Part shown: positions 6,231 through 43,984 of the stretch, in pieces | Layout: each line of letters opens with the position of its first letter | Numbering within the stretch: position 1 is the first letter of the stretch | From: Rhizobium mongolense subsp. loessense | GTDB lineage: Bacteria; Pseudomonadota; Alphaproteobacteria; Rhizobiales; Rhizobiaceae | NCBI RefSeq assembly: GCF_900099775.1 | Contig: NZ_FMTM01000003.1 | Span: 124,001-188,000 of the forward strand | DNA: 64,000 nt | Direction of reading: 5' to 3' | The notes under the pieces: model-generated | The model's input: the letters and a program-made list of their open reading frames with translations, nothing else | The model's database searches: none | What the model was told of the DNA's origin: nothing | Made by a program: the position numbers and the translations under genes

Positions 6231-6731
6231 ATGCACAAGCACGATCTGGTCTACCTCACTGAGGATGCGTCTCACGACGCGGCTATCGAACACATCAACG
6301 AAGAAGCATTCGGCCCCGGCCGGCACACGCGTGCCGCTGCCCGCATCCGCGAGCAGGGGCCGCACGATCTGTCGCTCTCCTTCATCTGTACCGATGACGG
6401 CGAAACGATCGCCTCGGTCAGAATGACGCCGGTCATGGCGGGCGATGTTAAAGGACACCTGCTCGGACCGCTCGCCGTCCGGCCATCGCACAAGAATATG
6501 GGCATCGGCCGCGAACTCGTGCGGATCGCGGTGGAGGCGGCAAGGCGCAACGGCTCCGAAGCCGTCATCCTTGTCGGCGATCCGCCGTATTATTGCCCGC
6601 TCGGCTTCGAGAAGGTTGCCTACAACGCGCTCTCCTTTCCAGGGCCAGTCGATCCTGCCCGCGTTCTGGTCGTTCCGATTGCCGAAGATGTCCATCAGCG
6701 TCTCAAGGGTATAATCGGTTGGCGTGCATAG
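6231..6731 (+). CDS. GNAT-family N-acetyltransferase (YhbS-like)
   Basis: A 166-residue acetyltransferase. The acetyl-CoA-binding motif A is clear: LGPLAVRPSHKNMGIGRELVRIAV at about residues 78-101 contains the Q/R-x-x-G-x-G/A-type loop, here NMGIG. EAVILVGDPPYYCPLGFEKV (about 109-128) is typical of the YhbS branch. A longer reading from 6186 would add 15 residues of poor quality; ATG at 6231 gives the family length. The acceptor substrate is unknown. The gene ends about 90 bases before the broken MFS transporter. Confidence 0.82.
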   Translation: MHKHDLVYLTEDASHDAAIEHINEEAFGPGRHTRAAARIREQGPHDLSLSFICTDDGETIASVRMTPVMAGDVKGHLLGPLAVRPSHKNMGIGRELVRIAVEAARRNGSEAVILVGDPPYYCPLGFEKVAYNALSFPGPVDPARVLVVPIAEDVHQRLKGIIGWRA

Positions 6732-6819
6732 GTCATATGTTCTATCGCTGATTTTCCCTGAACCTCACTTTGCGCGAGGTTTCGGCAGCTTGGTGGAGGG
6801 CGGCACGAGCGGAATTTCG

Positions 6820-8119: not shown

Positions 8120-8126
8120 GCGAGAC
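8105..8126. terminator. Hairpin between convergent MFS gene and vWA-like gene
   Basis: GTCTCGCT at 8105-8112 and AGCGAGAC at 8119-8126 form a perfect 8-base stem with a 6-base loop, covering the MFS stop codon and ending just before the convergent gene's stop. No strong T-run follows on either side, so it is a plausible but weak bidirectional terminator. Confidence 0.45.
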
Positions 8127-28902: not shown

Positions 28903-29787
28903 ATGAAAAAGCTTGTTGCAAGCATTCTGCCGCTCGCAGTCGCAGCTCTCCTTGGAACTGCTGCATTCGCACAGGAAGCCACGCACGGCGAGGGCGCCGC
29001 TCCGGCCGAGCACGAGGAAGGCGCCACGCCGCACTATCCGCTGAAGCACCCGCGGGAGCAGGACTGGAGCTTCGCCGGCCCCTTCGGCCATTATGACAAG
29101 GGCCAGCTGCAGCGCGGCCTGAAGGTCTATACGGAAGTCTGTTCCGCCTGCCACTCGATGAGCCTGGTTCCCTTCCGCATGCTCGGCGAACTCGGCTACT
29201 CCGAGGCGCAGGTCAAGGCTTTTGCCGCGAACTACGAGGTTCAAGATGGCCCGGATTCTGCGGGTGAGATGTTCACACGCAAGGCTATCCCTTCGGATTA
29301 TTTTCCGTCGCCATACGCCAACGCCCAGGCCGCTGCCGCTGCGAACAATGGCGCGGCCCCGCCGGATTTCTCGCTGATCGCGAAGGCCCGCGGGATAACC
29401 CGCGGCTTCCCGCAGTTCGTCTTCGATATCTTCACGCAGTATCAGGAAGGCGGACCAGACTATATCTACTCGCTGCTGACGGGCTATGAAGAGCCGCCGG
29501 CGGGTTTCCAGGTTCCCGAGGGCGCGCATTACAACCCTTACTTCAACGCTGCTGCGGCCTTCGCGATGCCGAAGCCGCTCTCCGACGATCAGGTGACCTA
29601 TGACGACGGCACGCCGCAGACCGTCGATCAGTATTCCAAGGATGTCTCGGCCTTTCTGATGTGGGCCGCAGAGCCGCACCTCGAAGAGCGCAAGAGCACC
29701 GGCTTCATGGTCATCGTGTTCCTGTTGATTTTCTCGGGTCTCATCTTCCTGACGAAGCGCTCGGTCTATGCCAACAAGGAGCACTGA
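28903..29787 (+). CDS. petC: Cytochrome c1
   Basis: A 294-residue protein with a signal peptide (MKKLVASILPLAVAALLGTA, cut after about residue 24). The haem-c motif CSACHS lies at about 80-85, and a Met ligand sits later in the cytochrome fold. A C-terminal membrane anchor STGFMVIVFLLIFSGLIFL is present near 266-284. It passes electrons to a soluble cytochrome c. In Bradyrhizobium the b and c1 genes are fused, but here they are separate. It is followed by a strong intrinsic terminator. Confidence 0.96.
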   Translation: MKKLVASILPLAVAALLGTAAFAQEATHGEGAAPAEHEEGATPHYPLKHPREQDWSFAGPFGHYDKGQLQRGLKVYTEVCSACHSMSLVPFRMLGELGYSEAQVKAFAANYEVQDGPDSAGEMFTRKAIPSDYFPSPYANAQAAAAANNGAAPPDFSLIAKARGITRGFPQFVFDIFTQYQEGGPDYIYSLLTGYEEPPAGFQVPEGAHYNPYFNAAAAFAMPKPLSDDQVTYDDGTPQTVDQYSKDVSAFLMWAAEPHLEERKSTGFMVIVFLLIFSGLIFLTKRSVYANKEH

Positions 29788-29807
29788 GCGGTTCTAGCTC
29801 AATAAGC

Positions 29808-29836
29808 AAAAGGCGGCTTTGGGGCCGCCTTTTTTG
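29808..29836 (+). terminator. Intrinsic terminator of petABC
   Basis: AAAAGGCGGC at 29808-29817 pairs with GCCGCCTTTT from 29824, followed directly by T's. It sits about 20 bases after the petC stop, a textbook rho-independent terminator, and marks the operon end before apt. Confidence 0.88.
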
Positions 29837-29904
29837 TTGGTTCCATGTCAGTCAGTTGATAGGGTGCAACCGACTAGATCCCCTCGCAGACAGACGGACT
29901 TTCC

Positions 29905-30447
29905 ATGAACAATATTGCCTCGGAGCTTGCGGTTAGCATCCGCTCCATCCCGGACTATCCGAAGCCCGGCATTATCTTTCGCGACATCACGACGCTGCTC
30001 GGCAATCCGCGGGCGTTTCGCCGCGCTGTGGATGAACTGGTGCAGCCTTATGCGGGCCTGAAGATCGACAAGATCGCCGGCATGGAAGCGCGCGGCTTCA
30101 TTCTCGGCGGCGCCGTGGCGCATCAGCTTTCGGCAGGCTTCGTGCCGATCCGCAAGAAGGGTAAGCTGCCGCATGATACCGTGCGGATCGCCTACAGCCT
30201 GGAATATGGCGTCGACGAGATGGAGATGCACCGGGATGCGGTTCAGCCGGGCGAAAAGGTTATTCTCGTGGACGATCTGATTGCAACCGGCGGGACCGCC
30301 GTCGGCGCGACGAAGCTACTTCGCCAGATGGGGGCGGAAGTCGTCGGTGCATGCTTCGTCATCGATCTACCGGATCTCGGCGGCCGCAGAAAGCTCGATG
30401 AACTCGGCGTGCATGTCCACACGCTGGTCGAATTCGCCGGGCACTGA
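29905..30447 (+). CDS. apt: Adenine phosphoribosyltransferase
   Basis: A 180-residue enzyme making AMP from adenine and PRPP. The PRPP-binding loop [20 protein letters not shown] (about 117-136) is canonical, with the preceding PGEK turn. [20 protein letters not shown] (about 12-31) and [14 protein letters not shown] (about 59-72) are also standard. It is a single gene with the petABC terminator upstream. PRPP comes from prs at 42029. Confidence 0.95.
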
Positions 30448-30456
30448 AGCCCGGCT

Positions 30457-30924
30457 TTACTCGAATTCGAGCACGCTGCCCTCGAAGCGGATGACAGGCG
30501 TGCCGTCTTGGTTGACGCCTTCGTTGAGGATCGAATTGAGAAACCAGCCCTGCCGGGATGTGAGAGGCCGGCTGGCAAGCAAGGTCACCGAATAGCTGAC
30601 CGTCTCGTCGACGAAGACCGGACGCAGCCATTGCAACTTCTGGAAGCCGGGCGAAGGGCCGAGCTTCGGTGGGGCGACGCCCTCCCTGGCAAGTCGCGCG
30701 GTTTCCTTTTCCCAGTAGTCCAGGAAAGTTCGCATCCAGGCGGCGCATGTATGCCAACCCGAGGCGCAGAGATTGCCGAAGAGCGTCTTCCGGGCGGCTT
30801 CCTTGTCAACATGGAAGCGCTGCGGATCGAAGCGCGTGGCGAAATGGATGATCCGCTCCTCGGTAAAGGTATAGCCGCCGATCGCAGCCTTTTCGCCGAT
30901 CGTATAAAGCTCCGCCATCCTCAT
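30457..30924 (-). CDS. MaoC-like hot-dog dehydratase (second of a tandem pair)
   Basis: A 155-residue single-domain hot-dog protein. ITEERIIHFATRFDPQRFHV-like sequence (YTFTEERIIHFATRFDPQRF, about 18-37) followed by ASGWHTCAAWMRTF (about 54-67) fits the MaoC dehydratase fold; the D-x(4)-H catalytic pair is visible as D33...H38. Start ATG at 30924 overlaps the stop of the upstream paralogue by ATGA, indicating coupling. Substrate, probably an enoyl thioester, is unknown. Confidence 0.85.
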   Translation of the reverse strand: MRMAELYTIGEKAAIGGYTFTEERIIHFATRFDPQRFHVDKEAARKTLFGNLCASGWHTCAAWMRTFLDYWEKETARLAREGVAPPKLGPSPGFQKLQWLRPVFVDETVSYSVTLLASRPLTSRQGWFLNSILNEGVNQDGTPVIRFEGSVLEFE

Positions 30925-31382
30925 GGATTTGCCTCCGCTGTGTCGCGCATGCTGAACATGATCCAGTTTTCGCAGTAGCAGACCAGATCGCCGTGCTGAT
31001 TGTGGACCTCATGCTTGAAGCGGGCGATGCCGATGCCGGGCCGCGAACGCATGGCGCGGGATTCCAGCACCGTCGAACGCCCGGACAGTGTGTCGCCGGC
31101 AAGAACGGGTTTCCTCCATTCCATCACGTCGATGCCGGGTGCGCCCTGGGAATGTGAATTCAGCAAAAAACCATAGGCCATCATGCGCATGAAGAGCGCG
31201 GACGTATGCCAGCCGGAAGCCGCGAGCCCGCCAAGGATGCTGGCGCGTCCGGCCATCTCGTCCATGTGCATCGGCTGCGGGTCGAATTCGGTTGCGAACT
31301 CGATGATCTCCTGCGCCGTCACGGCGACCGGGCCTAACGCAAAGCTGCGGCCCGGCTCGAAGTCTTCAAAAACTAGCTTCAT
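30921..31382 (-). CDS. MaoC-like hot-dog dehydratase (first of a tandem pair)
   Basis: A 153-residue hot-dog protein of the MaoC family. VTAQEIIEFATEFDPQPMHM (about 21-40) holds the catalytic D34/H39 pair, and ASGWHTSALFMRMM the substrate-channel stretch. It overlaps the downstream paralogue by four bases and may form a heterodimer with it. Likely role: (R)-specific enoyl-CoA hydration. It is preceded by ychF in the same direction with a 32-base gap, so it could be in one transcript. Confidence 0.85.
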   Translation of the reverse strand: MKLVFEDFEPGRSFALGPVAVTAQEIIEFATEFDPQPMHMDEMAGRASILGGLAASGWHTSALFMRMMAYGFLLNSHSQGAPGIDVMEWRKPVLAGDTLSGRSTVLESRAMRSRPGIGIARFKHEVHNQHGDLVCYCENWIMFSMRDTAEANP

Positions 31383-31414
31383 CTGGCCTCGTCCTCCCTC
31401 GGCCGTGCTGCCAA

Positions 31415-32518
31415 TCAGGTATTGAAGCGGAAGTGGATCACGTCGCCGTCCTGAACCACGTATTCCTTGCCTTCATCCCTGGCTTTGCCCGCGTCCTTGG
31501 CGCCGGTTTCCCCGCCGAGCGCGATGTAGTCGTTATAACCGATAGTAAAGGCACGGATGAAGCCGCGTTCGAAATCCGTGTGGATGACGCCGGCAGCGGC
31601 CGGTGCCTTGGTGCCGCGCACGATCGTCCAAGCGCGGGTCTCCTTGGGGCCGACGGTGAAATAGGTGATCAAGTCGAGCAGGTGATAGCCCGCACGGATT
31701 AGGCGATCGAGGCCAGCCTCTTCCAGACCAAGGGCGGAGAGGAATTCCTTGCTTTCTTCTTCCGGCAGTTGAGCCACTTCAGACTCGATCGCGGCCGAGA
31801 TGGTCACGCATTCGGCGCCTTGGGCTTTCGCCATCTCGGCAACAGCCTCGGTATGTTCGTTGCCTGTTGCTGCATCGGCTTCCGCGACGTTGCAGACGTA
31901 GAGCACTGGATGGGACGTCAGAAGGTTCAGGCCCTTCAGGACTTCGATTTCGTCGGCGCCGAGCGTCTTCAACAATAGACGAGCCGGCTTGCCTTCGTTG
32001 AGGAGCTTGATCACCGCTTCCATGACGGGAAGCTGCGTCAGCGAATCCTTGTCCTTGGAGGCGGCGCGTTTGCGCGTTTGCTCGACGCGGCGTTCGAGAC
32101 TTTCAAGGTCGGCAAGCATCAGCTCGGTTTCGATGGTGTCGGCGTCGCTGACCGGATTGATGCGGCCTTCGACATGGGTGATGTCGTCATCCTCGAAGCA
32201 GCGCAGCACATGCACGACAGCATCGACTTCGCGGATGTTGGCGAGGAACTTGTTGCCGAGGCCTTCCCCCTTGGACGCGCCGCGCACCAGACCGGCGATA
32301 TCGACGAAGGAAATGCGGGTTGGGATGATTTCCTTCGAGCCGGCGATCGAGGCGAGCTTTTGCATCCGTGGATCGGGAACGGCGACTTCGCCGGTGTTGG
32401 GCTCGATGGTACAGAAGGGATAGTTCGCCGCCTGCGCCGCTGCCGTCTTGGTGAGCGCGTTGAAGAGTGTCGACTTGCCAACATTCGGCAGACCGACGAT
32501 ACCGCATTTGAAGCCCAT
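31415..32518 (-). CDS. ychF: Redox-regulated GTPase/ATPase YchF
   Basis: A 367-residue P-loop protein from ATG at 32518 (MGFKCGIVGLPNVGKSTLFN), the normal YchF start; the frame is open 37 codons further but that part is not conserved. Walker A GLPNVGKST, G3 region VDIAGLVRGASKGEGLGNKF and the C-terminal TGS-like domain ending YVVQDGDVIHFRFNT are all present. It interacts with the ribosome, binds ATP better than GTP, and is a neighbour of pth in many bacteria. Confidence 0.95.
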   Translation of the reverse strand: MGFKCGIVGLPNVGKSTLFNALTKTAAAQAANYPFCTIEPNTGEVAVPDPRMQKLASIAGSKEIIPTRISFVDIAGLVRGASKGEGLGNKFLANIREVDAVVHVLRCFEDDDITHVEGRINPVSDADTIETELMLADLESLERRVEQTRKRAASKDKDSLTQLPVMEAVIKLLNEGKPARLLLKTLGADEIEVLKGLNLLTSHPVLYVCNVAEADAATGNEHTEAVAEMAKAQGAECVTISAAIESEVAQLPEEESKEFLSALGLEEAGLDRLIRAGYHLLDLITYFTVGPKETRAWTIVRGTKAPAAAGVIHTDFERGFIRAFTIGYNDYIALGGETGAKDAGKARDEGKEYVVQDGDVIHFRFNT

Positions 32519-32889
32519 GACTGGATGTCCGTATTCGCTGAAATTGTTGCCTTGCCTATGGGATAAAGGAGCCATGCGGTCAAGTCTTCCGCCACTTTTA
32601 CCGCCGCTCACTTGCCGATAGGGCGACACTGGCCTATTTTTCCGTCCGCGAAGATTTCGAGAGTAATATTGCGAATTTCACCGGAAGGGCAGGTGACCTT
32701 TGCCCAAGGAGATCCTAGGCCATCTTGGTGCCAAACACCCGGCGGCGAGCTTGAATTTGAAGCTCTTACCTGATTGAAAGGCTGTAGTCCGGGCTCGCAA
32801 TCGACAGGTGAGTGTCGAAATTCCCTGGCCGACAATAATCGTCTAATTCAGAGAATTACCTCTCATGTCATCAACGGGTGGATTTTCCG
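32519..32889. other. Intergenic region between divergent ychF and clpS2
   Basis: A 371-base gap. It must contain the two divergent promoters. A minus-strand reading frame from 32835 to 32608 has only a TTG start and no Shine-Dalgarno sequence, and I do not accept it as a gene. No repeat or hairpin of note was found. Confidence 0.35.
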
Positions 32890-33201
32890 ATGAGTGACAA
32901 CGACGTTGCCATAAAGCCGAAAACGAAGATCAAGCTGAAGCTGGATAAGCCCAAGCTCTACAAGGTTCTTCTTTTCAACGATGACTATACGCCACGCGAG
33001 TTCGTCGTCATGATCCTCAAGGCCGTTTTCCGGATGAGCGAGGAGACGGGATACCGGGTGATGATGACGGCGCATAAAATGGGCTCCAGCGTGGTCGTCG
33101 TCTGCGCCAAGGACATTGCCGAGACAAAGGTCAAGGAGGCGATGGACTATGCCAAGGAGGCAGGCTTCCCGCTGATGTTTACGGCGGAACCCGAAGAATA
33201 G
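32890..33201 (+). CDS. clpS: ClpS2-type adaptor of the Clp protease (N-end rule)
   Basis: A 103-residue adaptor that hands N-degron substrates to ClpA. Core motifs are YKVLLFNDDYTPREFVVMIL (about 30-49) with the N-D-D-Y-T-P binding loop, then AHKMGSSVVVV and DIAETKVKEAMDYAKEAGFP. The phrasing VFRMSEETGYRVMMTAHKMG is that of the second, ClpS2 paralogue of rhizobia rather than ClpS1. Start ATG at 32890; a 4-residue-longer reading is possible. It is not next to clpA. Confidence 0.93.
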   Translation: MSDNDVAIKPKTKIKLKLDKPKLYKVLLFNDDYTPREFVVMILKAVFRMSEETGYRVMMTAHKMGSSVVVVCAKDIAETKVKEAMDYAKEAGFPLMFTAEPEE

Positions 33202-33274
33202 GCGTTTCTTAACCAATCTTCTTAAGCTGCCATCCGTCAATTGCCGCTAGATTGCGCCCACGACGGAGGCGCGC

Positions 33275-33658
33275 ATGCATGCTGAGGCAGCTACTTGGCA
33301 TTATTTCGTCGCCGCGGCGCTCTTTGCGATCTTCGGTGCGATCGGCCATGTCGTCCGTGCGTTGTTCAACGTCTATCCGGACAGGCTTTCGGACAAGCCG
33401 ATCATCGATCTGGCCATTTCGGACGGTTATGATCTTTCCGACATGCTCTTCGGAACGGAATATGACGATGCCGGCTACTATCGGTCCGACAGCCTCAAGA
33501 ACCTACGTATTGCCTGCTCCATTGCCGTCGTTGCGGGCATTGGCACGATGCTGCTCGTAGAGGATGCCTCGATCCTGATGGCAACGGCGATCGACGACGG
33601 AGCCAAGGCACTTTGGGAACTGCTCCTCTACCGCCTTCAAGAGCTGCAATTGCTTTGA
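33275..33658 (+). CDS. Hypothetical membrane protein
   Basis: A 127-residue protein with a hydrophobic segment near residues 9-28 (YFVAAALFAIFGAIGHVVRA) and another at about 78-97 (IACSIAVVAGIGTMLLVEDA). Between them lies an acidic soluble loop. I do not recognise the family. It shares the plus strand with clpS2 (73-base gap) and meets the convergent GNAT gene directly. Confidence 0.55.
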   Translation: MHAEAATWHYFVAAALFAIFGAIGHVVRALFNVYPDRLSDKPIIDLAISDGYDLSDMLFGTEYDDAGYYRSDSLKNLRIACSIAVVAGIGTMLLVEDASILMATAIDDGAKALWELLLYRLQELQLL

Positions 33659-34114
33659 TCAGCCGGGGCGCCTGATCTGATAGCCGGTCTTATCCCGCAT
33701 GAAGCCGCAGTTTTCGTAGAAGCGCAGCGTTGCGGGGTTCCTTGAACCGGTAAGGAGCATCACTTTATAGCAATTCTCCTCCCAGGCCGTTGCGCAGGCA
33801 TGACGGATCAACGCGCCGGCATAACCCTTTCTGCGGTGATCGGCGTGCGTGATGACATTCTCGACCAGAGCGTACGAAGCACCGTTTCGCGTGAGATTGG
33901 GTGTGATGATCAGCGTAGCGGATGCAACAGGCATATCGGCGGCCAGCGCGACAAATATGGTCATGCCCGGGTGGGCGAGGATGGTTGAGAAGCGGTCGCT
34001 TGCCCAGGCGGGATCGATCGCTGGATCATCGGGATTGAGGTGACGGTAGAGCTCAAGAAGGGCCTGTAAGTCGCCGGGGCCGGCGGGCTTGATCATGATA
34101 TCTCGCTTCGGCAT
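33659..34114 (-). CDS. GNAT-family N-acetyltransferase
   Basis: A 151-residue acetyltransferase. Motif A is LVENVITHADHRRKGYAGAL (about 83-102), with RRKGYAG as the CoA pyrophosphate loop, and NPATLRFYENCGFMRDKTGY (about 126-145) the C-terminal family pattern. Start is ATG at 34114, or 34096 (MIKPAG) as an alternative. It starts 5 bases after the pth stop and is probably co-transcribed. Acceptor unknown. Confidence 0.82.
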   Translation of the reverse strand: MPKRDIMIKPAGPGDLQALLELYRHLNPDDPAIDPAWASDRFSTILAHPGMTIFVALAADMPVASATLIITPNLTRNGASYALVENVITHADHRRKGYAGALIRHACATAWEENCYKVMLLTGSRNPATLRFYENCGFMRDKTGYQIRRPG

Positions 34115-34119
34115 CTTGC

Positions 34120-34833
34120 CTACTCACCCTTGTTGCCGAACATCTTCTTTAGCATTTCGGCCATAGGGCCGGTCGCAGGCAGCTTAGGCTGCGGGTGTCG
34201 CGCCTGGTGGATGTGGGATTGCGCTGCCGGCTTCTTTTCGGACTTCGGCTTGTCCTCCTCCGCCTTGCCGCCGACGGCGAGCGCCAGCTTGTTCATCAAC
34301 TGCGAATCCTCCTTGCGCACCAGCATGTCGGCATTGTCGGCAAGCGTTTCCATGAGCGGTTGCAGCCAGGCCTGGTCGGCCTTGGCGAAATCGCCGAGTA
34401 CGTGGTGCTGCACAAGTTCCTTGACGCCAGGGTGACCGATGCCGAGGCGCAGTCGCCGATAATCCTTGCCGCAATGGGCGTCGAGCGACCTGATGCCGTT
34501 ATGGCCGCCATTGCCGCCGCCGATCTTCAGCCGGGCCTTGCCGGGTGGCAGGTCGAGCTCGTCATAGATGGCGACGAGATCGGAAGGCTGCAGCTTGTAG
34601 AAACGCATGGCTTCGCCGACGGCTTCGCCGGAGAGGTTCATGTAGGTTTGCGGCTTGATCAGCAGCACCTTTTCGCCCCCAAGCTCGCCTTCCGAAATTT
34701 CCGCCTTGAACTTCTTGGACCAGGGGGAAAAGCCGTGACGCCGATGGATGGCGTCGGCTGCTATGAAGCCGATATTGTGGCGGTTTCCGGCATATTTGCT
34801 TCCGGGATTGCCGAGACCCGCGATGATCAGCAT
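34120..34833 (-). CDS. pth: Peptidyl-tRNA hydrolase with a basic C-terminal extension
   Basis: A 237-residue enzyme from ATG at 34833 ([20 protein letters not shown]), which frees tRNA from peptidyl-tRNA. The catalytic His is in NRHNIGF (His20), and NGGHNGIRS and LGIGHPG are typical. Most bacterial Pth proteins are about 190-200 residues; here the last 45 or so residues ([20 protein letters not shown]..., then [19 protein letters not shown]) form a low-complexity linker plus a small helix, as in other rhizobia. It belongs with rplY and ychF. Confidence 0.94.
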
Positions 34834-34918
34834 TGGGAAGTCCGTTTCTTGAATGCCTGCTGCCCGCTTCACCACCGCGAAACGCGCAGGAAGTCAAGCG
34901 CAAAGGCACGGCGCGGTG

Positions 34919-35638
34919 CTAATTGCCGAGGTGCAGTCCATACTTCAGGAAAATCTCTTTCTGGGTGCCATCGGCGATCAGCTTATCGAGAGCGGCCTGC
35001 ATCCGCACCTGAAGGTCGGATGGAAAATCCCTGTTACAGGCGATACCCATCGGCTGTGCGGAGAGCATGGTGACCATCTCCACCGGCTGATCCGCCTTCA
35101 GCTTTTCGAAGTAAAGCTCTGAAATGGGCATCATGTCGATACGGCCACCGAGAAGCTTGCGAAGTGTAGCATTGAAGTCGGTGGCGATATCGAGCTTGGT
35201 AAAGCCCTTTTGCCTCAACACCATCTCGGTATAGTCTTCGCGTTGGGTGCCGACGGTATATTTCTTGGACGCCTCAAGGTCATTCGCAACGACACCCGAT
35301 CCCTTCCGCGTGATCAAGATATTGCGATCGACGAGCAGCGGCTCGATCCATTTGAAGAGGGGATCGCGCAAGGCATTGTGTGCCGTGGCAAAAACGCAGG
35401 TCATGGGCTGTGATTGCGCGAGGCTGTAGGCTCGTGCCCAGGGCAGCAACTCCATGGTATAGTCGACGCCGATATCGGCCATGACCTTTTCGACTTGTTC
35501 AACGGTCGCGCCCTTGATCACCTTCCCGTCGCGATAATTGAAGGGCGCGTATTCTTCAGTCGTGAAATTGACCGTCTGCGACTGGGCCGGCGCTGCGCAA
35601 GGAAGCGTCAGAAAAGCAAGAAGCAGGAGCTTTTTCAT
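34919..35638 (-). CDS. Family-3 periplasmic solute-binding protein, orphan
   Basis: A 239-residue protein with a signal peptide (MKKLLLLAFLTLPCAAPAQS). The binding-protein fold is shown by NFTTEEYAPFNYRDGKVIKG (about 24-43), VDYTMELLPWARAYSLAQ (about 58-75) and RQEDY-like TVGTQREDYTEMVLRQKGF (about 128-146). No permease or ATPase gene is near. It starts 24 bases after the stop of the GGDEF-EAL gene, so it is probably co-transcribed. It may present an amino-acid-like ligand to the periplasmic domain of that sensor, as NspS does for MbaA in Vibrio. Confidence 0.85.
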   Translation of the reverse strand: MKKLLLLAFLTLPCAAPAQSQTVNFTTEEYAPFNYRDGKVIKGATVEQVEKVMADIGVDYTMELLPWARAYSLAQSQPMTCVFATAHNALRDPLFKWIEPLLVDRNILITRKGSGVVANDLEASKKYTVGTQREDYTEMVLRQKGFTKLDIATDFNATLRKLLGGRIDMMPISELYFEKLKADQPVEMVTMLSAQPMGIACNRDFPSDLQVRMQAALDKLIADGTQKEIFLKYGLHLGN

Positions 35639-35662
35639 ATATTTCCACCTTCAATGCGCCGA

Positions 35663-38020
35663 TCACGAGGCTTGGGCGACCTCATTTACCACGGCTGTGA
35701 GGTCCTCGATCAATTTCGAAGCATTCTGTGGACGATGGAAGAGGTAGCCCTGACCGTAGTCAAGTCCCATCTGGTGTAGGGTGCGGCATTCTTCTTCGGT
35801 TTCGATGCCTTCCGCGATGACGGTACAGTCCATCTTATGCGAGAGCGTGGTGATGCCTTCGATGAGCATCCGGCTCTTGTGGCGGACGTCATCATTCGTG
35901 TCGTTGATCGACCGCGTGAAGGATTGGTCGACCTTAATGATGTCGACCGGGAAGCGGTTGAGATAGCTCAGCGACGAGTAGCCGGTACCGAAATCGTCAA
36001 GGGCGATGCGGCAGCCGAAAAGACGCAGTTCGGTGAGCACCATGCGTATTTGCGGATTGTCGTGCATCAGAACGGCTTCGGTGATTTCGACGACAATTCG
36101 ATCCGGACGGATGCCGTGCCGCCCGACGAGCCCGGCGAGGCGGGAGGGTAGGGCGGCCTCGAACTGCAGCGGCGAGAAATTGATCGCGAGATAGGTATCC
36201 TGCATGCCCGGAATCCGGGAGATACTCGCCAGATGCCCGATCGCCTTTTCCATGATGACGTTGCCGACGCGGACGATCTTGGCGGTCTCCTCGGCGACGT
36301 GGATGATGCCGGCCGGCGGCATCAGGCCCTTCTGCGGGTGGTTTAGGCGCAGGAGCGCTTCGAAGCCGGCGATGCGGCGATCGTCAAGGCCAACGATCGG
36401 CTGCAGATAGGCGTCGAACCAATCCTCGGCGAGACCATTTTCGATGTGGCTTTCGATCTCGGCGCGCGCCCTTGCGCTGTCCAGCATGCTGTTGTCGAAA
36501 ATCTGTGCGCCATTCTTGCCGTCGCGCTTCTTCGCATACATCGCCATATCCGACTTCTGCAGCAATTCGGCTGCATTCGACGCATGGCGCGGATAGATGG
36601 CGATGCCGATGCTGGCGCTCAGATGCAGGTCAGGGCCGAAAGGCGCCTCGAAGACTGTGGCAATCTGCTCGCACATCGCCTTGGCGCGCTTCTCGCCGTC
36701 CTTGGCCGGAAGCAGGATGGCGAATTCGTCGCCGCCAAGTCGCGCTGCCTGATCGGAGGGCGCTAGATGTTCGTTGAGCCGCTCGACGAGCTCGCGAAGC
36801 GCTCGATCGCCCTCGGCATGGCCCATATTGTCGTTGATCCACTTGAAGCGGTCGAGATCGATAAAGAGGCAGGCCAGCTCCTGGCCAGCGGCGTCGGCTT
36901 CGGCGATCTTGCCGTCGAGGGCGGTCTCGAAGCCTTGGCGGTTCAGCAGGCCGGTGAGATGGTCGGTAATCGCCTGGCGGTGGTTGCGGTCTTCCGAGGC
37001 CTTCAGTGCGGTTACGTCGGTCATGACCGACAGCGAGAGCTGGTTTGGTCTGGTGGCTGTCTTCGATTCCAGTATCAGCACGTCCATGATGCGGCCGTCT
37101 GCGCAGAGGAACTTTACGGTCACGTCCAGTGCCGCGCCATTCTCGAAACCTTCCTTGCGGTTTTGGAACGCGTCGCGGGTGTCGAACGTAACGAGTTCGG
37201 CAAATCTGCGACCGATCACCTCGCCCCGCCCGTAGCCCGTTGCGACCAGCCAATAGTCGCTGACCGCTATGATGCGATCCTCGTTGTCCAGTGAGAAGAG
37301 CATGGCGGGCGTGAGATTATAGATATCGGTTGCGAGGCGGTGGGCGAGTTTCAGTTCCTTTTCCTCGCTCTCCAGCTTCGTCTGCATCTCGTTGAAGCTG
37401 CGGGCGAGGCGGCCGATCTCATCGCTCGACTGCCAATCGACATGATGGCGCGATCCAAGCTGACGGGTGGCCTCTATGGCCGCGATAAGCCGCATGAGCG
37501 GCTGGATGACAAAGAGGCGGTTGCCAATCAGTGCGGTGCCGAAGACGGTGAGCACAGCGAAAATGAAGATCGATATGAAGACGACTTCTTCATGCTTGAG
37601 GCCGGAGAAGAGGCTAAGCTTCGGATAATAGACCGCAATGCTGCCTAGGTTCTTCGGACCGTCGACCGTGTTGTAGATGATTGCGCGGGAAACCTGAACG
37701 AGCTCGCCGTCAAAGGATTTCGGGATGGTCGATTGCGTCACGTTGAGCTGACTGGATTGATCGCGAACCTCGACCTTCACGATGGCGCCCTGCGAAACCA
37801 TCGTGGCACTGATCTGGGTTACGCTGTCTTCGTCGAGATCCCAGAGCGGCTTTGCGAGTGCCTGAGAATTGGCAACCAGAAGAACGGAGATGTGGTCGCG
37901 TATTTCCTTATCGGCGCGCTCGGAAGAAAGGAATAGAAACAATACAAAAAGCGGAGCGACAAATATGAGAAGCGCCCCGCAAACAATCGCAAAAAATCTG
38001 TTCTCAACGGAATTGTTCAT
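35663..38020 (-). CDS. Membrane c-di-GMP enzyme with sensor, HAMP, PAS, GGDEF and EAL domains
   Basis: A 785-residue protein from ATG at 38020 (GGGGAG upstream). TM1 lies at about 7-32 and TM2 at about 146-172, with a periplasmic sensor of about 110 residues between. HAMP follows (about 173-225), then PAS (about 235-345). The GGDEF domain has RLGGDEFAIL at about 427-436, an intact cyclase active site. The EAL domain has FEALLRLNHP near 553-562, DDFGTGYSSLSYL and VIAEGIETEEE, all diesterase residues that I can check. Both c-di-GMP synthesis and breakdown are therefore possible. The downstream solute-binding protein is the likely signal input. Confidence 0.92.
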   Translation of the reverse strand: MNNSVENRFFAIVCGALLIFVAPLFVLFLFLSSERADKEIRDHISVLLVANSQALAKPLWDLDEDSVTQISATMVSQGAIVKVEVRDQSSQLNVTQSTIPKSFDGELVQVSRAIIYNTVDGPKNLGSIAVYYPKLSLFSGLKHEEVVFISIFIFAVLTVFGTALIGNRLFVIQPLMRLIAAIEATRQLGSRHHVDWQSSDEIGRLARSFNEMQTKLESEEKELKLAHRLATDIYNLTPAMLFSLDNEDRIIAVSDYWLVATGYGRGEVIGRRFAELVTFDTRDAFQNRKEGFENGAALDVTVKFLCADGRIMDVLILESKTATRPNQLSLSVMTDVTALKASEDRNHRQAITDHLTGLLNRQGFETALDGKIAEADAAGQELACLFIDLDRFKWINDNMGHAEGDRALRELVERLNEHLAPSDQAARLGGDEFAILLPAKDGEKRAKAMCEQIATVFEAPFGPDLHLSASIGIAIYPRHASNAAELLQKSDMAMYAKKRDGKNGAQIFDNSMLDSARARAEIESHIENGLAEDWFDAYLQPIVGLDDRRIAGFEALLRLNHPQKGLMPPAGIIHVAEETAKIVRVGNVIMEKAIGHLASISRIPGMQDTYLAINFSPLQFEAALPSRLAGLVGRHGIRPDRIVVEITEAVLMHDNPQIRMVLTELRLFGCRIALDDFGTGYSSLSYLNRFPVDIIKVDQSFTRSINDTNDDVRHKSRMLIEGITTLSHKMDCTVIAEGIETEEECRTLHQMGLDYGQGYLFHRPQNASKLIEDLTAVVNEVAQAS

Positions 38021-38145
38021 GGTTCCGTTTTCTCCCCGGGCTCTCACTTCGCGGCCATACGGCAAAGAGCGGCAAGTGTAGAAATGCTTGGGGAATGCTT
38101 TCACGAATGTGTTAAATGTTGCTGAAGTGGCTCGCGTTAAAATTG

Positions 38146-38180
38146 ATAAGGCCCGCCTTCCAGGGGAAAGCGGGCCTTAT
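38146..38180 (-). terminator. Intrinsic terminator of rplY
   Basis: ATAAGGCCCGC at 38146-38156 and GCGGGCCTTAT at 38170-38180 make a perfect 11-base stem with a 13-base loop, 23 bases after the rplY stop on the minus strand, with an A/T-rich tail. It separates rplY from the c-di-GMP gene. Confidence 0.8.
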
Positions 38181-38203
38181 AATTACGAATTAGTGTATGC
38201 GGA

Positions 38204-38824
38204 TTATGCTTCCGCTTCGCCTTCGCCTTCGCCTTCAGCCGGAGCTTCTTCTTCAACGCCAGCGGCCGGAGCAACGATCGTTGCGATCGTGAAATCGCGG
38301 TCGATGACCGTTGTTACGCCCTTCGGCAGTGTGACTTCGGAGATATGGATGCTGTCGCCGATCTTCTTGCCGGAGAGGTCGATATCGAAGAATTCCGGGA
38401 TCGCATCAGCCGGGCAATGAACTTCGATTGTGTGGCGAACGATGTTCAAAACGCCGCCGATCTTCACCTGCGACTTCTCTTCGTTGATGAAGTGAACCGG
38501 GATCTCGACGGTGACCTGCGTGTTGCCGGAGACGCGGAGGAAATCCACGTGCATCGTGAAGTCGCGAACCGGATCGAGCTGATAGTCCTTCGGCAGAACT
38601 TTGTACTTCTTGCCGCCGACGTCGATCGTCGCGACAGTGGTCATGAAACTACCGGCATGAATGCGCTTCGTCACCTCATTGGTGCTGAGAGCGATAGAAA
38701 TGGGGGCCTGCTTGTCACCATAGATGACAGCTGGAATCAAACCGTTGCGGCGAAGTTCACGGGCGGACCCCTTACCAACCCGTTCGCGCGCCTCGGCCTT
38801 GAGCTCGTAAGTTTCCTGGCTCAT
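38204..38824 (-). CDS. rplY: 50S ribosomal protein L25 (CTC form)
   Basis: A 206-residue protein, longer than the 94-residue E. coli L25 because it has the CTC C-terminal domain. [31 protein letters not shown] (start region, about 5-35) is the L25 RNA-binding domain. [20 protein letters not shown] and the Glu/Gly-rich tail ([16 protein letters not shown]) are typical. It binds 5S rRNA. A minus-strand promoter of the form CTTGCG-18-TATAGC is visible at 38946-38975. It is upstream of pth and ychF, but other genes lie between. Confidence 0.95.
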
Positions 38825-38945
38825 GGCTATTCCTTTCGAGGTTATTTGGAGAGTCTCCGTCCGGTATCAACCTTCCGATGACTGGAGGGGCGTTTGGGCC
38901 TTCCTCATCCGCGTTGCCTCCAAGGGTGTCTGCGCGGACGCGTGC

Positions 38946-38975
38946 GCTATAGTATAAGTGACGCGGAAACGCAAG
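38946..38975 (-). promoter_or_regulatory. Candidate rplY promoter
   Basis: On the minus strand, CTTGCG (38975-38970) is followed after 18 bases by TATAGC (38951-38946), a fair match to the alphaproteobacterial housekeeping consensus (CTTGAC/TATAAT-like). The predicted start would lie about 115 bases before the rplY ATG. The rest of the 367-base gap holds the promoter of the divergent 39192 gene and a small hairpin (GGCTTG/CAAGCC, 39112-39132). Confidence 0.4.
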
Positions 38976-39191
38976 GCGACGCGGCCCCTATATCTCGGGT
39001 TGCCGGTCAGTGCCAGGATATTGTGAAATAAAGGAATCCTACGCCGTAATACAATATAGACTGAACCGGTATGAAATTCGGTTTCTAAATGTTGCGATTC
39101 AGCAGCTAGAGGGCTTGCCTTTTCGACAAGCCTGAGTTGACATCCGGCCGCGTACATTCTCACATGACCGCCGAGGCGGAGGAGCACATTC

Positions 39192-40661
39192 ATGCGGTAC
39201 AGGCTGATGACGGCGACGAGCGCCGTCGTTCTCGGATTGATGACGGCGGCCCATGCGGCTGAGATCGACCGGGATGGTGCAAACGCCATTCGCGACAATC
39301 TCAACAGCCTGCTGCCCGAAGACATTGCCAAGAGCGGCGTCGTCGCCGTCAATCCGGCCGGTGCGCGCTACGAGATCATCTACGACCTGGCCAAGCTCCT
39401 TTCCAAGGTCAACCCGGCGGATTTTGCGATCAACGGCCTGAAACCGATTTCGATGTTCGCCACGCCGCGGGACAACGGGCTCTGGAATGTCGAAGGCGAC
39501 AACAGCCTGAACGTTTCCGGACATTTCAAGGGACCGGACCAGAAACGCACCGATTTTACCTATTCCATCGCCTCAATGGTCTATACCTCGGTCTTCGATC
39601 CGGCGATCAGCTATTTTCGCTCCGGCGATTTCAGCGCCAAGGATATCAAAGTCACGACCGCGACCGATACCGAACAGGTCAACGCCAGCTTCGGCGAGAT
39701 GAAATACAAGCTTACCTCCGCTGATGGCGCTTCCGCCGACAGGACGGACTTTGCGGCGAACGGTACTCTGACAGCGTTTGCCGAGCAGGTGAGCGGGAAG
39801 GAAATGCCGCCGCTCCAGATCACTGCCGATACCATCGATTTCGACGCCAAGGTCAACAGCCTTCCGGCAAAGCGATTGAGAGACATTGTCGTCTTCGCAC
39901 TCGACCATGCCGAGGAAAAGCAGATGAGCAAGGAGAGCGAGGAAAGGCTGAAGGGCATGCTGCGCGACGCTTTTCCGCTGATCTCTTCGCTCGAGGAAAC
40001 GATCACCCTCAACAATCTCGCGGTGACGAGTGCTGCGGGCGGAGGCGGCTCCAAGAGCTTCGGCTACCGCCTGGCAGTCAATGGGCCGAGCAATGCAACG
40101 CAGGTTGGCGTTGCATTGACTGCTGCCGACGTCACATTTGACAGCCCGATGGTTCCGGCCGCCTATTCCGCCTTTCTGCCGAAGGCAGTCGATGTGCAGT
40201 TCGCCATCCCGGATATGGACTTTGCGGCTTTTGGTGACGAATTCATGAAACTTGATCTCACCAAGCCGCCGGAGGGCGGGGAGGACGCGGGCAAGAAGGC
40301 CGTGGAGCGGCTTTTCCGCGATGGCAAGTTTGTGATCGACTTTCCGAAGGTCAGCGCCAAGTCCGGCGTCTACGACATCGACATATCCGCAAAGGTCGAG
40401 AGCCGCATCGATGCGGGCAAGGACGACTATGCGCTGCAGGCCTCCATTCTGGCGCGCGACTACGACAAGACCATCGCGGCGGTTCAGGAGCTTGCCAAAA
40501 CCAATCCCGACCTCAATCAGGCGTCCTTCGGAATGCTGATGGTCAAGGGTTTCGCCAAGACCGATCCCGACGGCAGGCAGCGCTGGGACGTGACGGTCAG
40601 CCCCGATGGCACGGTGACCGTCAACGGTCAGCAGCTCAAGGGGCCGGATAAGCCGGAATGA
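39192..40661 (+). CDS. Secreted protein of DUF2125/DUF945-like type
   Basis: A 489-residue protein with a signal peptide ending after AHAA (about residue 22). It is preceded by GGAGG 9 bases before the ATG. The mature part is rich in alternating charged and polar strands with repeating K-V-x-S patterns and no catalytic motif that I can see. The overall look (periplasmic beta-rich, terminal NGQQLKGPDKPE) resembles DUF2125/DUF945 families, but I give that as a guess. It is transcribed alone between rplY (divergent) and a 2H phosphoesterase. Confidence 0.6.
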   Translation: MRYRLMTATSAVVLGLMTAAHAAEIDRDGANAIRDNLNSLLPEDIAKSGVVAVNPAGARYEIIYDLAKLLSKVNPADFAINGLKPISMFATPRDNGLWNVEGDNSLNVSGHFKGPDQKRTDFTYSIASMVYTSVFDPAISYFRSGDFSAKDIKVTTATDTEQVNASFGEMKYKLTSADGASADRTDFAANGTLTAFAEQVSGKEMPPLQITADTIDFDAKVNSLPAKRLRDIVVFALDHAEEKQMSKESEERLKGMLRDAFPLISSLEETITLNNLAVTSAAGGGGSKSFGYRLAVNGPSNATQVGVALTAADVTFDSPMVPAAYSAFLPKAVDVQFAIPDMDFAAFGDEFMKLDLTKPPEGGEDAGKKAVERLFRDGKFVIDFPKVSAKSGVYDIDISAKVESRIDAGKDDYALQASILARDYDKTIAAVQELAKTNPDLNQASFGMLMVKGFAKTDPDGRQRWDVTVSPDGTVTVNGQQLKGPDKPE

Positions 40662-40748
40662 TTTTGCTGAACATCAGGCGACGATGATCGTCACGGCCAC
40701 CTTGAGCGCCTAAAAGTGGCCGACAATGGCGTCGGAGGCGCTTTGCGC

Positions 40749-41270
40749 ATGCCTCATGCGATAAGTCTGAAATGCTTAAACGAGACCGCATTGCCGATAG
40801 TCGAGCTTTGGCAGGAAGCGTCCGCATTCGAACCTGCTCCATCGATGAAGGCCCTAGACTATCCTGCCCATGTGACCTTAGCGGTATATGAGGATTTTGC
40901 GCCCACCGATGTGCTGACCCGAATTTTAGGCACTCAATCTGCGATACCCGTGACTTTTTCGGGTATTCGCTATTTTCAAAACGAATTCTTAGTGTTGTGG
41001 GCGCGTCCTGTATCGAATGGCCGGCTGCTGCAACTTCACGCGGCCGTCCACAGTGAAATAGACCCAGCGCTCTGCCGTGAGCACTATCGCCCCGATTTCT
41101 GGGTGCCTCATTGCACGATCGCAATGAAGATCCCCGGGGCCATGTTCGAGCCTGCCATCAAATGGGCATCCGAAAAGCAGGCGGAATTCTCCGTTACATT
41201 CGACGCGTTGGATATTGTGCGGTTTGCGCCAGTCGAGATCTTAAGTGAAGTCAAGTTGACCACACAATGA
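40749..41270 (+). CDS. 2H phosphoesterase (2'-5' RNA ligase superfamily)
   Basis: A 173-residue protein from ATG 40749 with both H-x-T/S-x motifs: HVTLAVYED (about residues 40-48) and HCTIAMKI (about 121-128). These form the symmetrical active site of 2H phosphoesterases such as 2'-5' RNA ligases and cyclic phosphodiesterases. It should be a cytosolic enzyme acting on 2',3'-cyclic or 2'-5' phosphodiesters. The longer frame from 40716 has no better start. It is not linked to RNA-repair genes here. Confidence 0.82.
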   Translation: MPHAISLKCLNETALPIVELWQEASAFEPAPSMKALDYPAHVTLAVYEDFAPTDVLTRILGTQSAIPVTFSGIRYFQNEFLVLWARPVSNGRLLQLHAAVHSEIDPALCREHYRPDFWVPHCTIAMKIPGAMFEPAIKWASEKQAEFSVTFDALDIVRFAPVEILSEVKLTTQ

Positions 41271-41360
41271 CCCCACACAGTCGCCCTTCCAAACCGCTAT
41301 GCCAAGTCGGGCTCGCGGCGGGTCCTGTGGACCAACATCATCGCCGGCACCGCCCGATGA

Positions 41361-41924
41361 TCAGAAGCGACACTCGCCGCCGCTGATGATCCGGAAGCCT
41401 GCATTGCCTGCCTCGCAGGGGTTCGGGAAGGTCTGTGTTTGGCGGCCGCGCTGGCCGCAGACCGGCGCATATTCGCGCGTGCAGATGCCGCCCGGGCGTT
41501 CCGGACGGTCAGGTCTGTCCGGACGGTCAGGTCTGTCCGGGCGATCCGGCCAGTCGGGGCGCCCGGGACGATCCGGCCAGTCGGGGCGCCCGGGACGATC
41601 CGGCCAGTCGGGGCGCCCGGGACGATCCGGATCGGGGCGCGCAAAGGGCGGCGGTGCGCGGCGGCATTCGCCGCGGCCGACGATCATGAAGCCGCTGTTG
41701 CGGGCTTGGCAGGCATTTCCGAAGGTTTGAAGGCGGCCGCCGCGTTCGCCGCAGACCGGCGCATATTCCATGGTGCACATTTGCTGCTGCGGCGGCCACG
41801 GGCGGGGCGGCGGGCGCGATGGACCGGGATCGACCTCCACCGTGCAGGCGGTAAGCAGGGGAACAAGCGCGAGAAGCGCGAAGTGCTTCGAGCCTACTGA
41901 ACATTTCATATTGATTGCCGTCAT
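41361..41924 (-). CDS. Lipoprotein with two Kazal-type inhibitor domains and a tandem-repeat linker
   Basis: A 187-residue protein from ATG at 41924, with GGGAAG 5 bases upstream. The lipobox LTAC (about residues 24-27) directs lipid attachment. Two Kazal-like domains follow: CTMEYAPVCGERGGR...GNACQARNSGF (first) and CTREYAPVCGQRGRQ...PNPCEAGNAGF (second), each with the C-x6-C and later Cys spacing of serine-protease inhibitors. Between them sits a Pro/Arg/Asp linker, PGRPDWPDR three times plus PDR units, made of exact DNA repeats. It may inhibit proteases of predators or hosts at the cell surface; that role is inference. Confidence 0.8.
   Translation of the reverse strand: MTAINMKCSVGSKHFALLALVPLLTACTVEVDPGPSRPPPRPWPPQQQMCTMEYAPVCGERGGRLQTFGNACQARNSGFMIVGRGECRRAPPPFARPDPDRPGRPDWPDRPGRPDWPDRPGRPDWPDRPDRPDRPDRPDRPERPGGICTREYAPVCGQRGRQTQTFPNPCEAGNAGFRIISGGECRF
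41503..41623. repeat. In-frame minisatellites in the Kazal lipoprotein gene
   Basis: An 18-base unit is repeated twice (41503-41520, 41521-41538), followed by a 27-base unit three times (41543-41623). All copies are identical in the given sequence and the units are multiples of three, so gains and losses of copies keep the reading frame and lengthen or shorten the linker between the two Kazal domains. Confidence 0.85.
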
Positions 41925-42028
41925 ATGGCTTCCCATGCAAATCACTTTGCGCGAGACTAGCCGAAAGCGCGCCGCCGAAGAAGACGCAAAATACAACCTT
42001 GCCTATCTTTTTCTAAACGAGGAAACTC

Positions 42029-42961
42029 TTAGTCGAAGAGACTGGAAACAGATTCTTCTTGGCTGGTGCGGTTGATCGCTTCGCCGATAAGGGTTGCAGT
42101 CGTGATGACGCGGATATTGTGGGCCGACTGGACGGCGGTGGTCGGCTGGATAGAGTCGGTGATCACCAGTTCGCGCAGCTTCGAGGAGGTGATGCGGGTG
42201 ACCGCGCCGCCGGAAAGAACGCCGTGGGTGATGTAGGCGGTGACGCTTGCCGCACCTTGGGCCAGCAACGCATCGGCGGCGTTGCAAAGCGTGCCGCCGG
42301 AATCGACGATGTCGTCAATAAGCAGGCAATCCTTGCCTTCGACGTCGCCGATGATGTTCATGACTTCGGATTCACCTGGACGGTCACGGCGCTTGTCCAC
42401 GATCGCCAGAAGACAGTCGAGGCGTTTGGCAAGCGAACGGGCGCGGACGACGCCGCCGACGTCCGGCGAAACGACCATGACGTTGCTGATGTCGTAGTTG
42501 GCCTTGATATCGCGCGTCAGAACTGGAACGGCGTAGAGGTTGTCCGTCGGGATGTCGAAGAATCCCTGAATCTGGCCGGCATGCAGGTCGAGCGTCAGAA
42601 CGCGGTCGGCACCGGCCTCGGTGATAAGGTTGGCGACCAGCTTCGCGGAGATCGGCGTGCGCCCTGAGGCGCGGCGATCCTGGCGGGCATAACCGAAATA
42701 GGGAAGGACTGCCGTGATGCGGCGCGCGGACGAACGGCGCATCGCATCGATCATAATCAGCAGTTCCATCAGATGATCGTTCGTCGGAAAGGAGGTCGAC
42801 TGGACGACGAAGACGTCTTCACCGCGGACGTTTTCCTGGATTTCGACGAAGATTTCCTGATCGGCAAATCTTCTGACGCTGGCCTTGCCCAAGGGCACAT
42901 TGAGATAGGTGCAGATCGCTTCGGCAAGATGCCGGTTCGAATTGCCTGCGAAAACCTTCAT
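42029..42961 (-). CDS. prs: Ribose-phosphate pyrophosphokinase
   Basis: A 310-residue PRPP synthetase. [20 protein letters not shown], then [21 protein letters not shown], the ATP region [20 protein letters not shown] (about 97-116), [20 protein letters not shown] and the PRPP loop [20 protein letters not shown] (about 212-231) are all family standards. It supplies PRPP for purine, pyrimidine, His and Trp synthesis and for apt in this window. It stands alone here; in other genomes it neighbours rplY. Confidence 0.96.
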
Positions 42962-43066
42962 TTTGGCCCGCCTGTTGTCTGCTGATAGCCGCGCTTTTTA
43001 GCCAGCTTGCTTCCGAATGCAAGCGCAAAGGCGCCACAGGCTTTGATATTTGTAAAAAGCCTGTTG

Positions 43067-43888
43067 CTAACCGTCGCGCGTCTGCCGCCAGGAATTAAAC
43101 TCGGCGATCGTTTTCGTGGCGATCTGCTGCATGACGGAGGCAGGAACGCCGACCCAGGGATCCTGTGCAGCGGAAGGCACCTTTTCCTGGCCCTGGATGC
43201 GGTGCAGGCGGGCGCCGCTGCCGTCGAGGATATCCCAGACGTAAACGACGGTCACGTTGCCCTCGTCGGTAAAGGCCGAGAGATAACCCTTCAGGATATA
43301 ATCGCTGCTGGTGTCGTTCGAACTCTTGATCGAGATACCGTGAGAACGCGCCTCGGCTCCGAGCTGGCGGGAAAGCGGCGTCACCGCTTGGACGGGAGCA
43401 CCGATAATCGGCAGGAAGCGAACGGTATTGCCGCCGATTGCGGATGAGGCGGCAGGATCGATGGCTGCGACCCGTTTCTGCTGGCGGGCAGGGGCCAGAT
43501 TGCCCATGTCTTCTTCTTCGGCCTGCGCATTGGAAACCGGTTCGGCAAGCGTCCGGCCTTCGACCGGCGGCGAAGCTGCGGGCGAGGGTCCGCGCCGGGC
43601 AAGCGCGTCGGCCTGCTCCTGCATTGTCGTCGGCGGCGCGCCGGGACCGGATCTGTAAGTCTGATTGTTGTATGCCGGGTGATAGCCGGCCTGCCTCGAT
43701 TCGTCAGCAAAGGCCCGCGGAGGCGCTGAGCCTGCCATGCGCTCGACTTCGCGCTGGGTGACGGGTGAGGAGCGGCCAAGCGACGAGTCGCCAATATCGA
43801 CTTGCGGTGTCAACGCATCGGTGGTGTTGCAAGCGGAAAGCGCGGCCAGGCAGGCAAGGAGCATCGGCGCAGTCTGAGCTCGCGTCAT
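43067..43888 (-). CDS. Rhizobial lipoprotein of unknown function
   Basis: A 273-residue protein from ATG 43888 (GGAAGGGA 8 bases upstream). The signal MTRAQTAPMLLACLAALSAC ends in a lipobox Cys at residue 20, so it is a lipoprotein. About residues 25-140 are a disordered Pro/Ala-rich stretch; the second half (SDYILKGYLSAFTDEGNVTV, then DGSGARLHRIQGQEKV) looks like a folded beta domain. It is placed alone between prs and the M24 gene. I recognise no named family. Confidence 0.7.
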   Translation of the reverse strand: MTRAQTAPMLLACLAALSACNTTDALTPQVDIGDSSLGRSSPVTQREVERMAGSAPPRAFADESRQAGYHPAYNNQTYRSGPGAPPTTMQEQADALARRGPSPAASPPVEGRTLAEPVSNAQAEEEDMGNLAPARQQKRVAAIDPAASSAIGGNTVRFLPIIGAPVQAVTPLSRQLGAEARSHGISIKSSNDTSSDYILKGYLSAFTDEGNVTVVYVWDILDGSGARLHRIQGQEKVPSAAQDPWVGVPASVMQQIATKTIAEFNSWRQTRDG

Positions 43889-43984
43889 CGCTTTCGTCCC
43901 TTCCCTCATTCGCATCAGCCCGCCTGATTTATGGGGGCGGGGGCTGTCGGCTGTCAATTCCGGATTCTTGCCGGTGATTGCCCG

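Follow-up and report, generated by a model that had tools for sequence, protein, structure and literature searches.

Gene layout and the two encoded proteins

We analysed a two-gene element within a 64,000-nucleotide (nt) stretch of Rhizobium mongolense subsp. loessense (contig NZ_FMTM01000003.1, positions 124,001 to 188,000; hereafter the window), in which a gene for a GGDEF-EAL inner-membrane receptor is followed on the minus strand by a gene for an orphan family-3 solute-binding protein (SBP). The receptor gene (35663..38020, ATG at 38020, stop ending at 35663) encodes 785 amino acids arranged as transmembrane segment (TM), periplasmic sensor, TM, HAMP, PAS, GGDEF and EAL, while the SBP gene (34919..35638, ATG at 35638, stop ending at 34919) encodes 239 amino acids. 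The two are separated by 24 nt (35639..35662), as the original prediction had stated, and no promoter- or terminator-like site was found in this gap. The receptor start agrees with the Met-x-x-Ser-Val-Glu start present in most rows of alignment A1; a mechanical caller of open reading frames (ORFs) favours a GTG at 38104. Outside the sensor, the pair is flanked on the same strand by rplY (ribosomal protein L25/Ctc; 38204..38824) upstream and pth (aminoacyl-tRNA hydrolase; 34120..34875) downstream, with ychF further on, and the same gene order is found in an annotated R. leguminosarum record. The aligned DNA is 96.5-96.9% identical to that of the Rhizobium mongolense USDA 1844 locus (L111). With queries from the same genome, neither an amino-acid permease nor an ATP-binding cassette (ABC) ATPase was matched in window positions 29001-44000, in line with the earlier description of an SBP without transporter neighbours.

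The SBP is a member of Pfam SBP_bac_3 (PF00497; 43.5 bits, gathering cut-off 26.4), the only family whose cut-off it passes (a Phosphonate-bd match remained below its own), and its E-value is the second-weakest among the 27 family-3 SBPs of its genome. By inspection, a signal peptide covers about residues 1-21 and there is no lipobox. The AlphaFold model (mean predicted local distance difference test score, pLDDT, 92.2) has arginine-, lysine/histidine- and glutamine-binding proteins as its best solved folds. The term 'amino-acid type' is a description of the fold. In amino-acid SBPs, an Arg holds the ligand carboxylate and an Asp the alpha-amino group. The carboxylate position is R91, an Arg in 29/29 SBP relatives and in 16 of the 17 usable family-3 proteins of the genome (20 rows, with L215, L221 and L223 dropped as wrong-frame ORFs). 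The usual Asp position is occupied by Ser173, with Asp in 0/29 relatives (in 2/29 it stands one position later) and in only 7/17 of the family-3 proteins of the genome. The 29 rows share W67, R69, R91, D135 and two Cys (81, 201) without exception. This pocket leans, weakly, towards a small zwitterion or organic acid as the putative ligand rather than a standard alpha-amino acid.

All four cytoplasmic domains of the receptor (HAMP, PAS, GGDEF and EAL) score above their Pfam cut-offs. Because hydropathy places membrane segments at about residues 12-30 and 147-165, the periplasmic part comprises about 115 residues (about residues 31-146; 37583..37930), close to the 110 or so originally proposed. 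We label it CHASE5-like or Cache-like on the basis of sub-cut-off Pfam and weak structure matches: its score against CHASE5 (PF17149) is 12.5 bits, below the cut-off of 27, and CHASE5 is matched at E<=1 in 15 of 24 relatives (best 5.7e-5). The sensor model (pLDDT 81.8; predicted template modelling score, pTM, 0.54) had only three PDB matches at E<=0.001, namely integrative models containing WalK and YvaQ/McpB and a LapD orthologue, with CitA as a weak match (E 0.016).

The 16 core residues checked in the GGDEF and EAL domains, which include the known catalytic ones, are all present in the window receptor. The domain order and intact motifs of the original prediction were recovered. Throughout 118 aligned receptors (the window plus 117), all 16 are identical in 114 rows and GGDEF is kept in 117; the other four rows are L166 (a cut contig), L039, and L038 and L095, in which the Ala of EAL is replaced. 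In L039 (6281-8592), the second receptor copy of genome G045, the reading frame is interrupted between PAS and GGDEF, reflecting either decay or a sequencing error. The inhibitory-site RxxD motif is absent from the window receptor (APSD) and present in 20/118 rows. Based on these residues, the receptor is predicted to be a GGDEF-EAL enzyme with both sites intact, able to make and break cyclic di-GMP (c-di-GMP). LapD, a catalytically dead GGDEF-EAL protein, was rejected as its identity (NCBIfam LapD 139.3 bits, cut-off 1020; catalytic motifs intact).

Pairing and co-variation in Rhizobiaceae and Rhizobium

The SBP (called at E<=1e-12; 27 genomes) and the sensor domain (E<=1e-15; 29 genomes) were searched in 151 Rhizobiaceae genomes, of which 27 encoded both, 2 the sensor only, none the SBP only and 122 neither. 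The co-occurrence for which the original prediction had proposed a search was found (Fisher p = 7.7e-28, a value that overstates independence because the genomes are related). In one sensor-only genome at these thresholds, G085, the sensor is carried by a histidine kinase with an SBP-type gene without Pfam match upstream. From the other 26 SBP genomes 28 regions were taken, giving, together with the window, 29 loci, and in all 29 the SBP gene directly follows a receptor gene of the same domain order. The location between rplY and pth is shared by 27 of them. The other two, L037 and L039, come from two genomes of the same genus and are second copies at other sites, where the two genes are still together. 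Two SBPs stand in tandem behind one receptor in genomes G014 and G117, both of one genus (loci L053, 5279-6779, and L050, 4756-6266), possibly representing two ligands for one receptor.

In addition, the best 80 of 338 confirmed loci in named genomes were inspected. All are Rhizobium-type, and the SBP gene adjoins the receptor gene in 79, the exception (L166) being a 3.6-kb contig whose end cuts the receptor gene. This sample and that of the 151 genomes are not independent, because some genomes are shared (L125/G029, L151/G128). The gap between the two genes, measured from the start codon nearest the aligned start, is 10-28 nt in 77 of the 79 loci, and 102 and 143 nt in the remaining two. One locus (L211) lies on a replicon labelled as a plasmid (NZ_CP022567.1, R. 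leguminosarum pSK03, 407945 bp) that holds rplY, the pair, pth, clpS and ychF; with such translation genes, it is either a piece of chromosome labelled as a plasmid or a secondary replicon.

Purifying selection acts on both genes: dN/dS is 0.073-0.126 in the SBP and 0.093-0.117 in the receptor (nine pairwise comparisons each, with dS near saturation). The fastest-changing parts are the SBP (mean distance 1.03) and the sensor domain (0.86), followed by PAS (0.75), GGDEF and EAL (0.55-0.58) and the flanking genes (0.12-0.30). In the 27 loci (of 29) where every gene is present, SBP distances correlate with those of the sensor domain more than the flanking genes account for (r 0.44, 0/2000 permutations as high), and no correlation was seen between the SBP and PAS (r 0.11) or EAL (r -0.06).

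Elsewhere in the window, at 41361-41996 on the minus strand, an ORF that is lipoprotein-like by inspection carries a Pro/Asp/Arg-rich repeat flanked by two Kazal-type protease-inhibitor stretches (Pfam Kazal_1, 37.3 bits). Inhibitors of this type are unusual in bacteria.

Relatives with other outputs

Elsewhere in the order, 13 sensor-bearing genes were found in 12 genomes, and 12 of them lie next to an SBP gene, which encodes a family-3 homologue in 11 cases and a Peripla_BP_4 protein in one (L109); beside the sensor gene of L110 none was recognised. The outputs of these 13 genes are GGDEF-EAL in seven, a histidine kinase in two (L099, L110) and a class III adenylate/guanylate cyclase in two (L098, L101), with two more cut by contig ends (L102, L107). 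In L109 (3956-7176), the Peripla_BP_4 gene abuts a GGDEF-EAL receptor with a related sensor, which is the same arrangement with another SBP class. In L098 (3852-7204), a class III cyclase with the same sensor has an SBP homologue on each side, the upstream one without Pfam match. In L105 and L106, the SBP gene is divergent to the receptor gene and is followed by two permease genes, a layout that is a possible trace of an ABC-transporter origin. Seen from the SBP side, six of nine homologues outside Rhizobium in the order sample adjoin the sensor domain and one adjoins a chemoreceptor (L103).

Of 299 genomes at the phylum level, 38 matched the SBP profile and 13 the sensor, and 20 regions were sampled from these, 18 chosen by SBP match and two by sensor match. 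A recognised receptor lies directly beside the SBP in five of the 18: GGDEF proteins in L239, L244 and L245, a kinase in L248 and a chemoreceptor in L233. A chemoreceptor gene in L242 and a short GGDEF-matching frame in L246, both further off, were left uncounted. The two sensor-chosen regions (L250, L251) encode kinases with an SBP-like gene upstream, that of L251 without Pfam match. A more distant SBP relative on a Pseudoalteromonas plasmid (L212, 28.8% identical) adjoins another SBP gene, and the annotation places neither a permease nor a receptor directly beside it.

The pair as a proposed split sensor

Our preferred reading, to which we assign a probability of about 0.78, is that the SBP is the co-receptor of a bifunctional c-di-GMP enzyme and that the two genes encode one split sensor for a molecule outside the cell. 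Read from sequence, the locus combines a conserved pairing, the lack of transporter genes, intact motifs, purifying selection and an input pair that is reused with other outputs. The original prediction had the pair setting c-di-GMP in response to an amino-acid-like signal; the notion of a single sensory unit has gained from the co-occurrence, gene order, second copies and reuse, while 'amino-acid-like' was not supported beyond the fold. In the proposed mechanism, the cleft of the exported SBP would hold a small molecule from outside the cell, and either the ligand-bound or the free SBP would dock on the CHASE5-like periplasmic domain of the receptor, from where the signal would travel via TM2, HAMP and PAS to shift c-di-GMP synthesis by GGDEF against breakdown by EAL. 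We infer direct contact between SBP and receptor, control by a ligand and a direction of switching; by analogy with ScrB-ScrC, PruR-DcpA and NspS-MbaA, it is most likely that the SBP docks on the receptor and switches its enzyme. As for the direction, our guess, at only slightly better than even odds, is that docking would favour the phosphodiesterase, as in ScrB-ScrC, in which the ligand-bound SBP triggers phosphodiesterase activity (PMC11315295), and in PruR-DcpA (PMC13259868), unlike NspS-MbaA, which takes the cyclase direction with norspermidine (PMC8079147). A review of SBP repertoires includes cyclases and phosphodiesterases among the receptors that SBPs activate (PMC9602780).

Several observations weigh against this reading. 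Among the 31 sensor-bearing genes of the 151 Rhizobiaceae genomes, one (G092, locus L093, receptor at 6366-8765) lacks an SBP gene at its locus. No SBP gene separates this receptor from pth, and in the rest of the G092 genome the SBP profile finds nothing better than 2.3e-9. The original prediction had named a receptor without partner in close relatives as contrary evidence; 30 of the 31 genes are otherwise, and L093 is a natural loss of the SBP partner. Two of the nine SBP homologues in the order sample (L100, L104) have neither sensor nor chemoreceptor beside them by the queries used. At the class level, only 4/20 sensor-bearing genes have a family-3 neighbour (L204, with an SBP_bac_8 gene and an adjoining ATPase, was left out of the four), a fading that may arise because alignment A1 includes the shared HAMP region, and at the phylum level 13/18 SBP-chosen regions have no recognised receptor directly beside the SBP. 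SBP distances also correlate with those of GGDEF (r 0.54, 0/2000 permutations as high), so the distance correlation supports a link but is not sensor-specific and is no proof of contact at the sensor. In Pseudomonas aeruginosa, AruS and the SBP PA4985 did not interact in a two-hybrid assay (PMC11113362), and such neighbours need not interact. Finally, the common rplY-pth location could partly explain the co-inheritance.

One alternative is that the SBP works with an ABC permease whose gene lies elsewhere in the genome and that it stands behind the receptor as a matter of operonic convenience, which we regard as unlikely. Orphans of this type do exist, because four of the 27 family-3 SBPs of the genome, including that of the window, have no listed permease within 6 kb (23/27 have one; 150 of 243 permease candidates were scored for this list). 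Relatives of the SBP precede two permease genes in L105 and L106, and Salmonella ArtI has both arginine-transporter and signalling roles (PMC7423604). Against it, searches with a single permease and a single ATPase of the same genome, which could miss distant transporters, gave matches in 0/28 Rhizobiaceae regions and 0/80 Rhizobium-type loci, by which simple uptake was rejected as the principal role; at the phylum level, none of the 20 regions had a permease match and one (L247) had an ATPase match. Moreover, none of the 151 Rhizobiaceae genomes has the SBP but not the receptor, and second copies keep the pair. Permeases beside homologues, which the original prediction would have counted against itself, had no match in the Rhizobiaceae regions and were matched in 2/13 loci elsewhere in the order (L105, L106).

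We also give little credence to a receptor that senses its own ligand through the CHASE5-like/Cache-like domain, with the SBP independent or altering only the supply of ligand. The resemblance of the sensor model to the WalK sensor domain and, weakly, to CitA speaks for direct sensing, as do the AruS/PA4985 result, the receptor of L093 and the 16/20 class-level sensor genes without family-3 neighbour; the near-complete linkage in Rhizobiaceae and the order, over several output types, speaks against it. Mere hitchhiking of two functionally unrelated genes in a conserved ribosomal-protein neighbourhood, to which the 27/29 loci between rplY and pth might point, is highly improbable, given the joint absence of both genes from 122/151 genomes, the two pairs elsewhere (L037, L039) and the lack of rplY, pth and ychF matches in L094-L110 (the G085 region and the regions outside Rhizobiaceae), the same queries giving matches in L093.

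The combination of an SBP with a c-di-GMP receptor is of a known kind, and S. meliloti itself has such a system with an SBP of another class, NspS-MbaA (smc00991-smc00992), which affects biofilm, exopolysaccharide and motility (PMC9993111). NspS-MbaA of V. cholerae and S. meliloti likewise joins an SBP and a TM-HAMP-GGDEF-EAL protein in a two-gene unit (PMC9993111). However, NspS resembles PotD/PotF and the window SBP belongs to SBP_bac_3; the periplasmic part of S. meliloti MbaA spans residues 24-256, compared with about 115 residues here; its motif is SGDEF instead of GGDEF; nspS and mbaA overlap by 3 bp, whereas the window genes are separated by a gap; and nspS lies upstream in V. cholerae, unlike the downstream SBP gene of the window. 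Membership was rejected, as both the PotD/PotF-type partner and the long MbaA-type periplasmic part are missing. PruR-DcpA and PruR-DTB of A. tumefaciens and others share a periplasmic binding protein with a receptor and interchangeable c-di-GMP/kinase outputs, but PruR is a SUOX-like pterin-binding protein (PMC13259868), and DcpA-type sensors carry a WX7E motif, where the window receptor has T68 as the eighth residue after W60 (among 118 aligned receptors, this position is E in 8 and T in 79). Without a SUOX-like partner and the WX7E motif, membership was again rejected, and the lineage stands outside these two systems tested.

ArtI of Salmonella is a family-3 binding protein. Synthesis of c-di-GMP by STM1987, a cyclase with a periplasmic domain, depends on this arginine-binding protein, which differs in being an arginine transporter subunit and in acting on a protein described as a diguanylate cyclase, not GGDEF-EAL (PMC7423604). 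With this precedent, control of a c-di-GMP enzyme by a family-3 binding protein, which the original prediction considered little described, is not new in principle. ScrB-ScrC of V. parahaemolyticus, compared by description, also has a periplasmic binding protein that switches a bifunctional GGDEF-EAL receptor (PMC11315295, PMC10269520); its operon includes ScrA, a signal-making aminotransferase, whereas the annotation of the R. leguminosarum record shows no such gene next to the pair. AruS/PA4985 shares a CHASE5 sensor domain with an SBP gene nearby and differs in its SBP_bac_8 protein and histidine kinase as well as in the negative two-hybrid result (PMC11113362). The new element is a family-3 lineage in Rhizobium that is conserved, free of transporter genes and combined with a sensor type of its own and with interchangeable outputs; no paper on the Rhizobium pair was found among the literature matches listed, which is weak evidence of absence. 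We tentatively propose, at somewhat less than even odds, that this SBP lineage and the CHASE5-like docking domain form a two-gene input cassette placed on at least three outputs (c-di-GMP turnover, class III nucleotide cyclase and histidine kinase), with SBP relatives also beside chemoreceptors and with a ligand other than a standard amino acid.

The level of c-di-GMP governs attachment and exopolysaccharide, and the signals sensed by most c-di-GMP enzymes are unknown. As the pair is small, has a single candidate ligand-binding protein and is present in every long-enough Rhizobium-type contig (79/80), screening one soluble protein for ligands could reveal a signal that sets c-di-GMP. The occurrence of the same input pair on several outputs would offer a natural series for studying how a binding protein drives its receptor.

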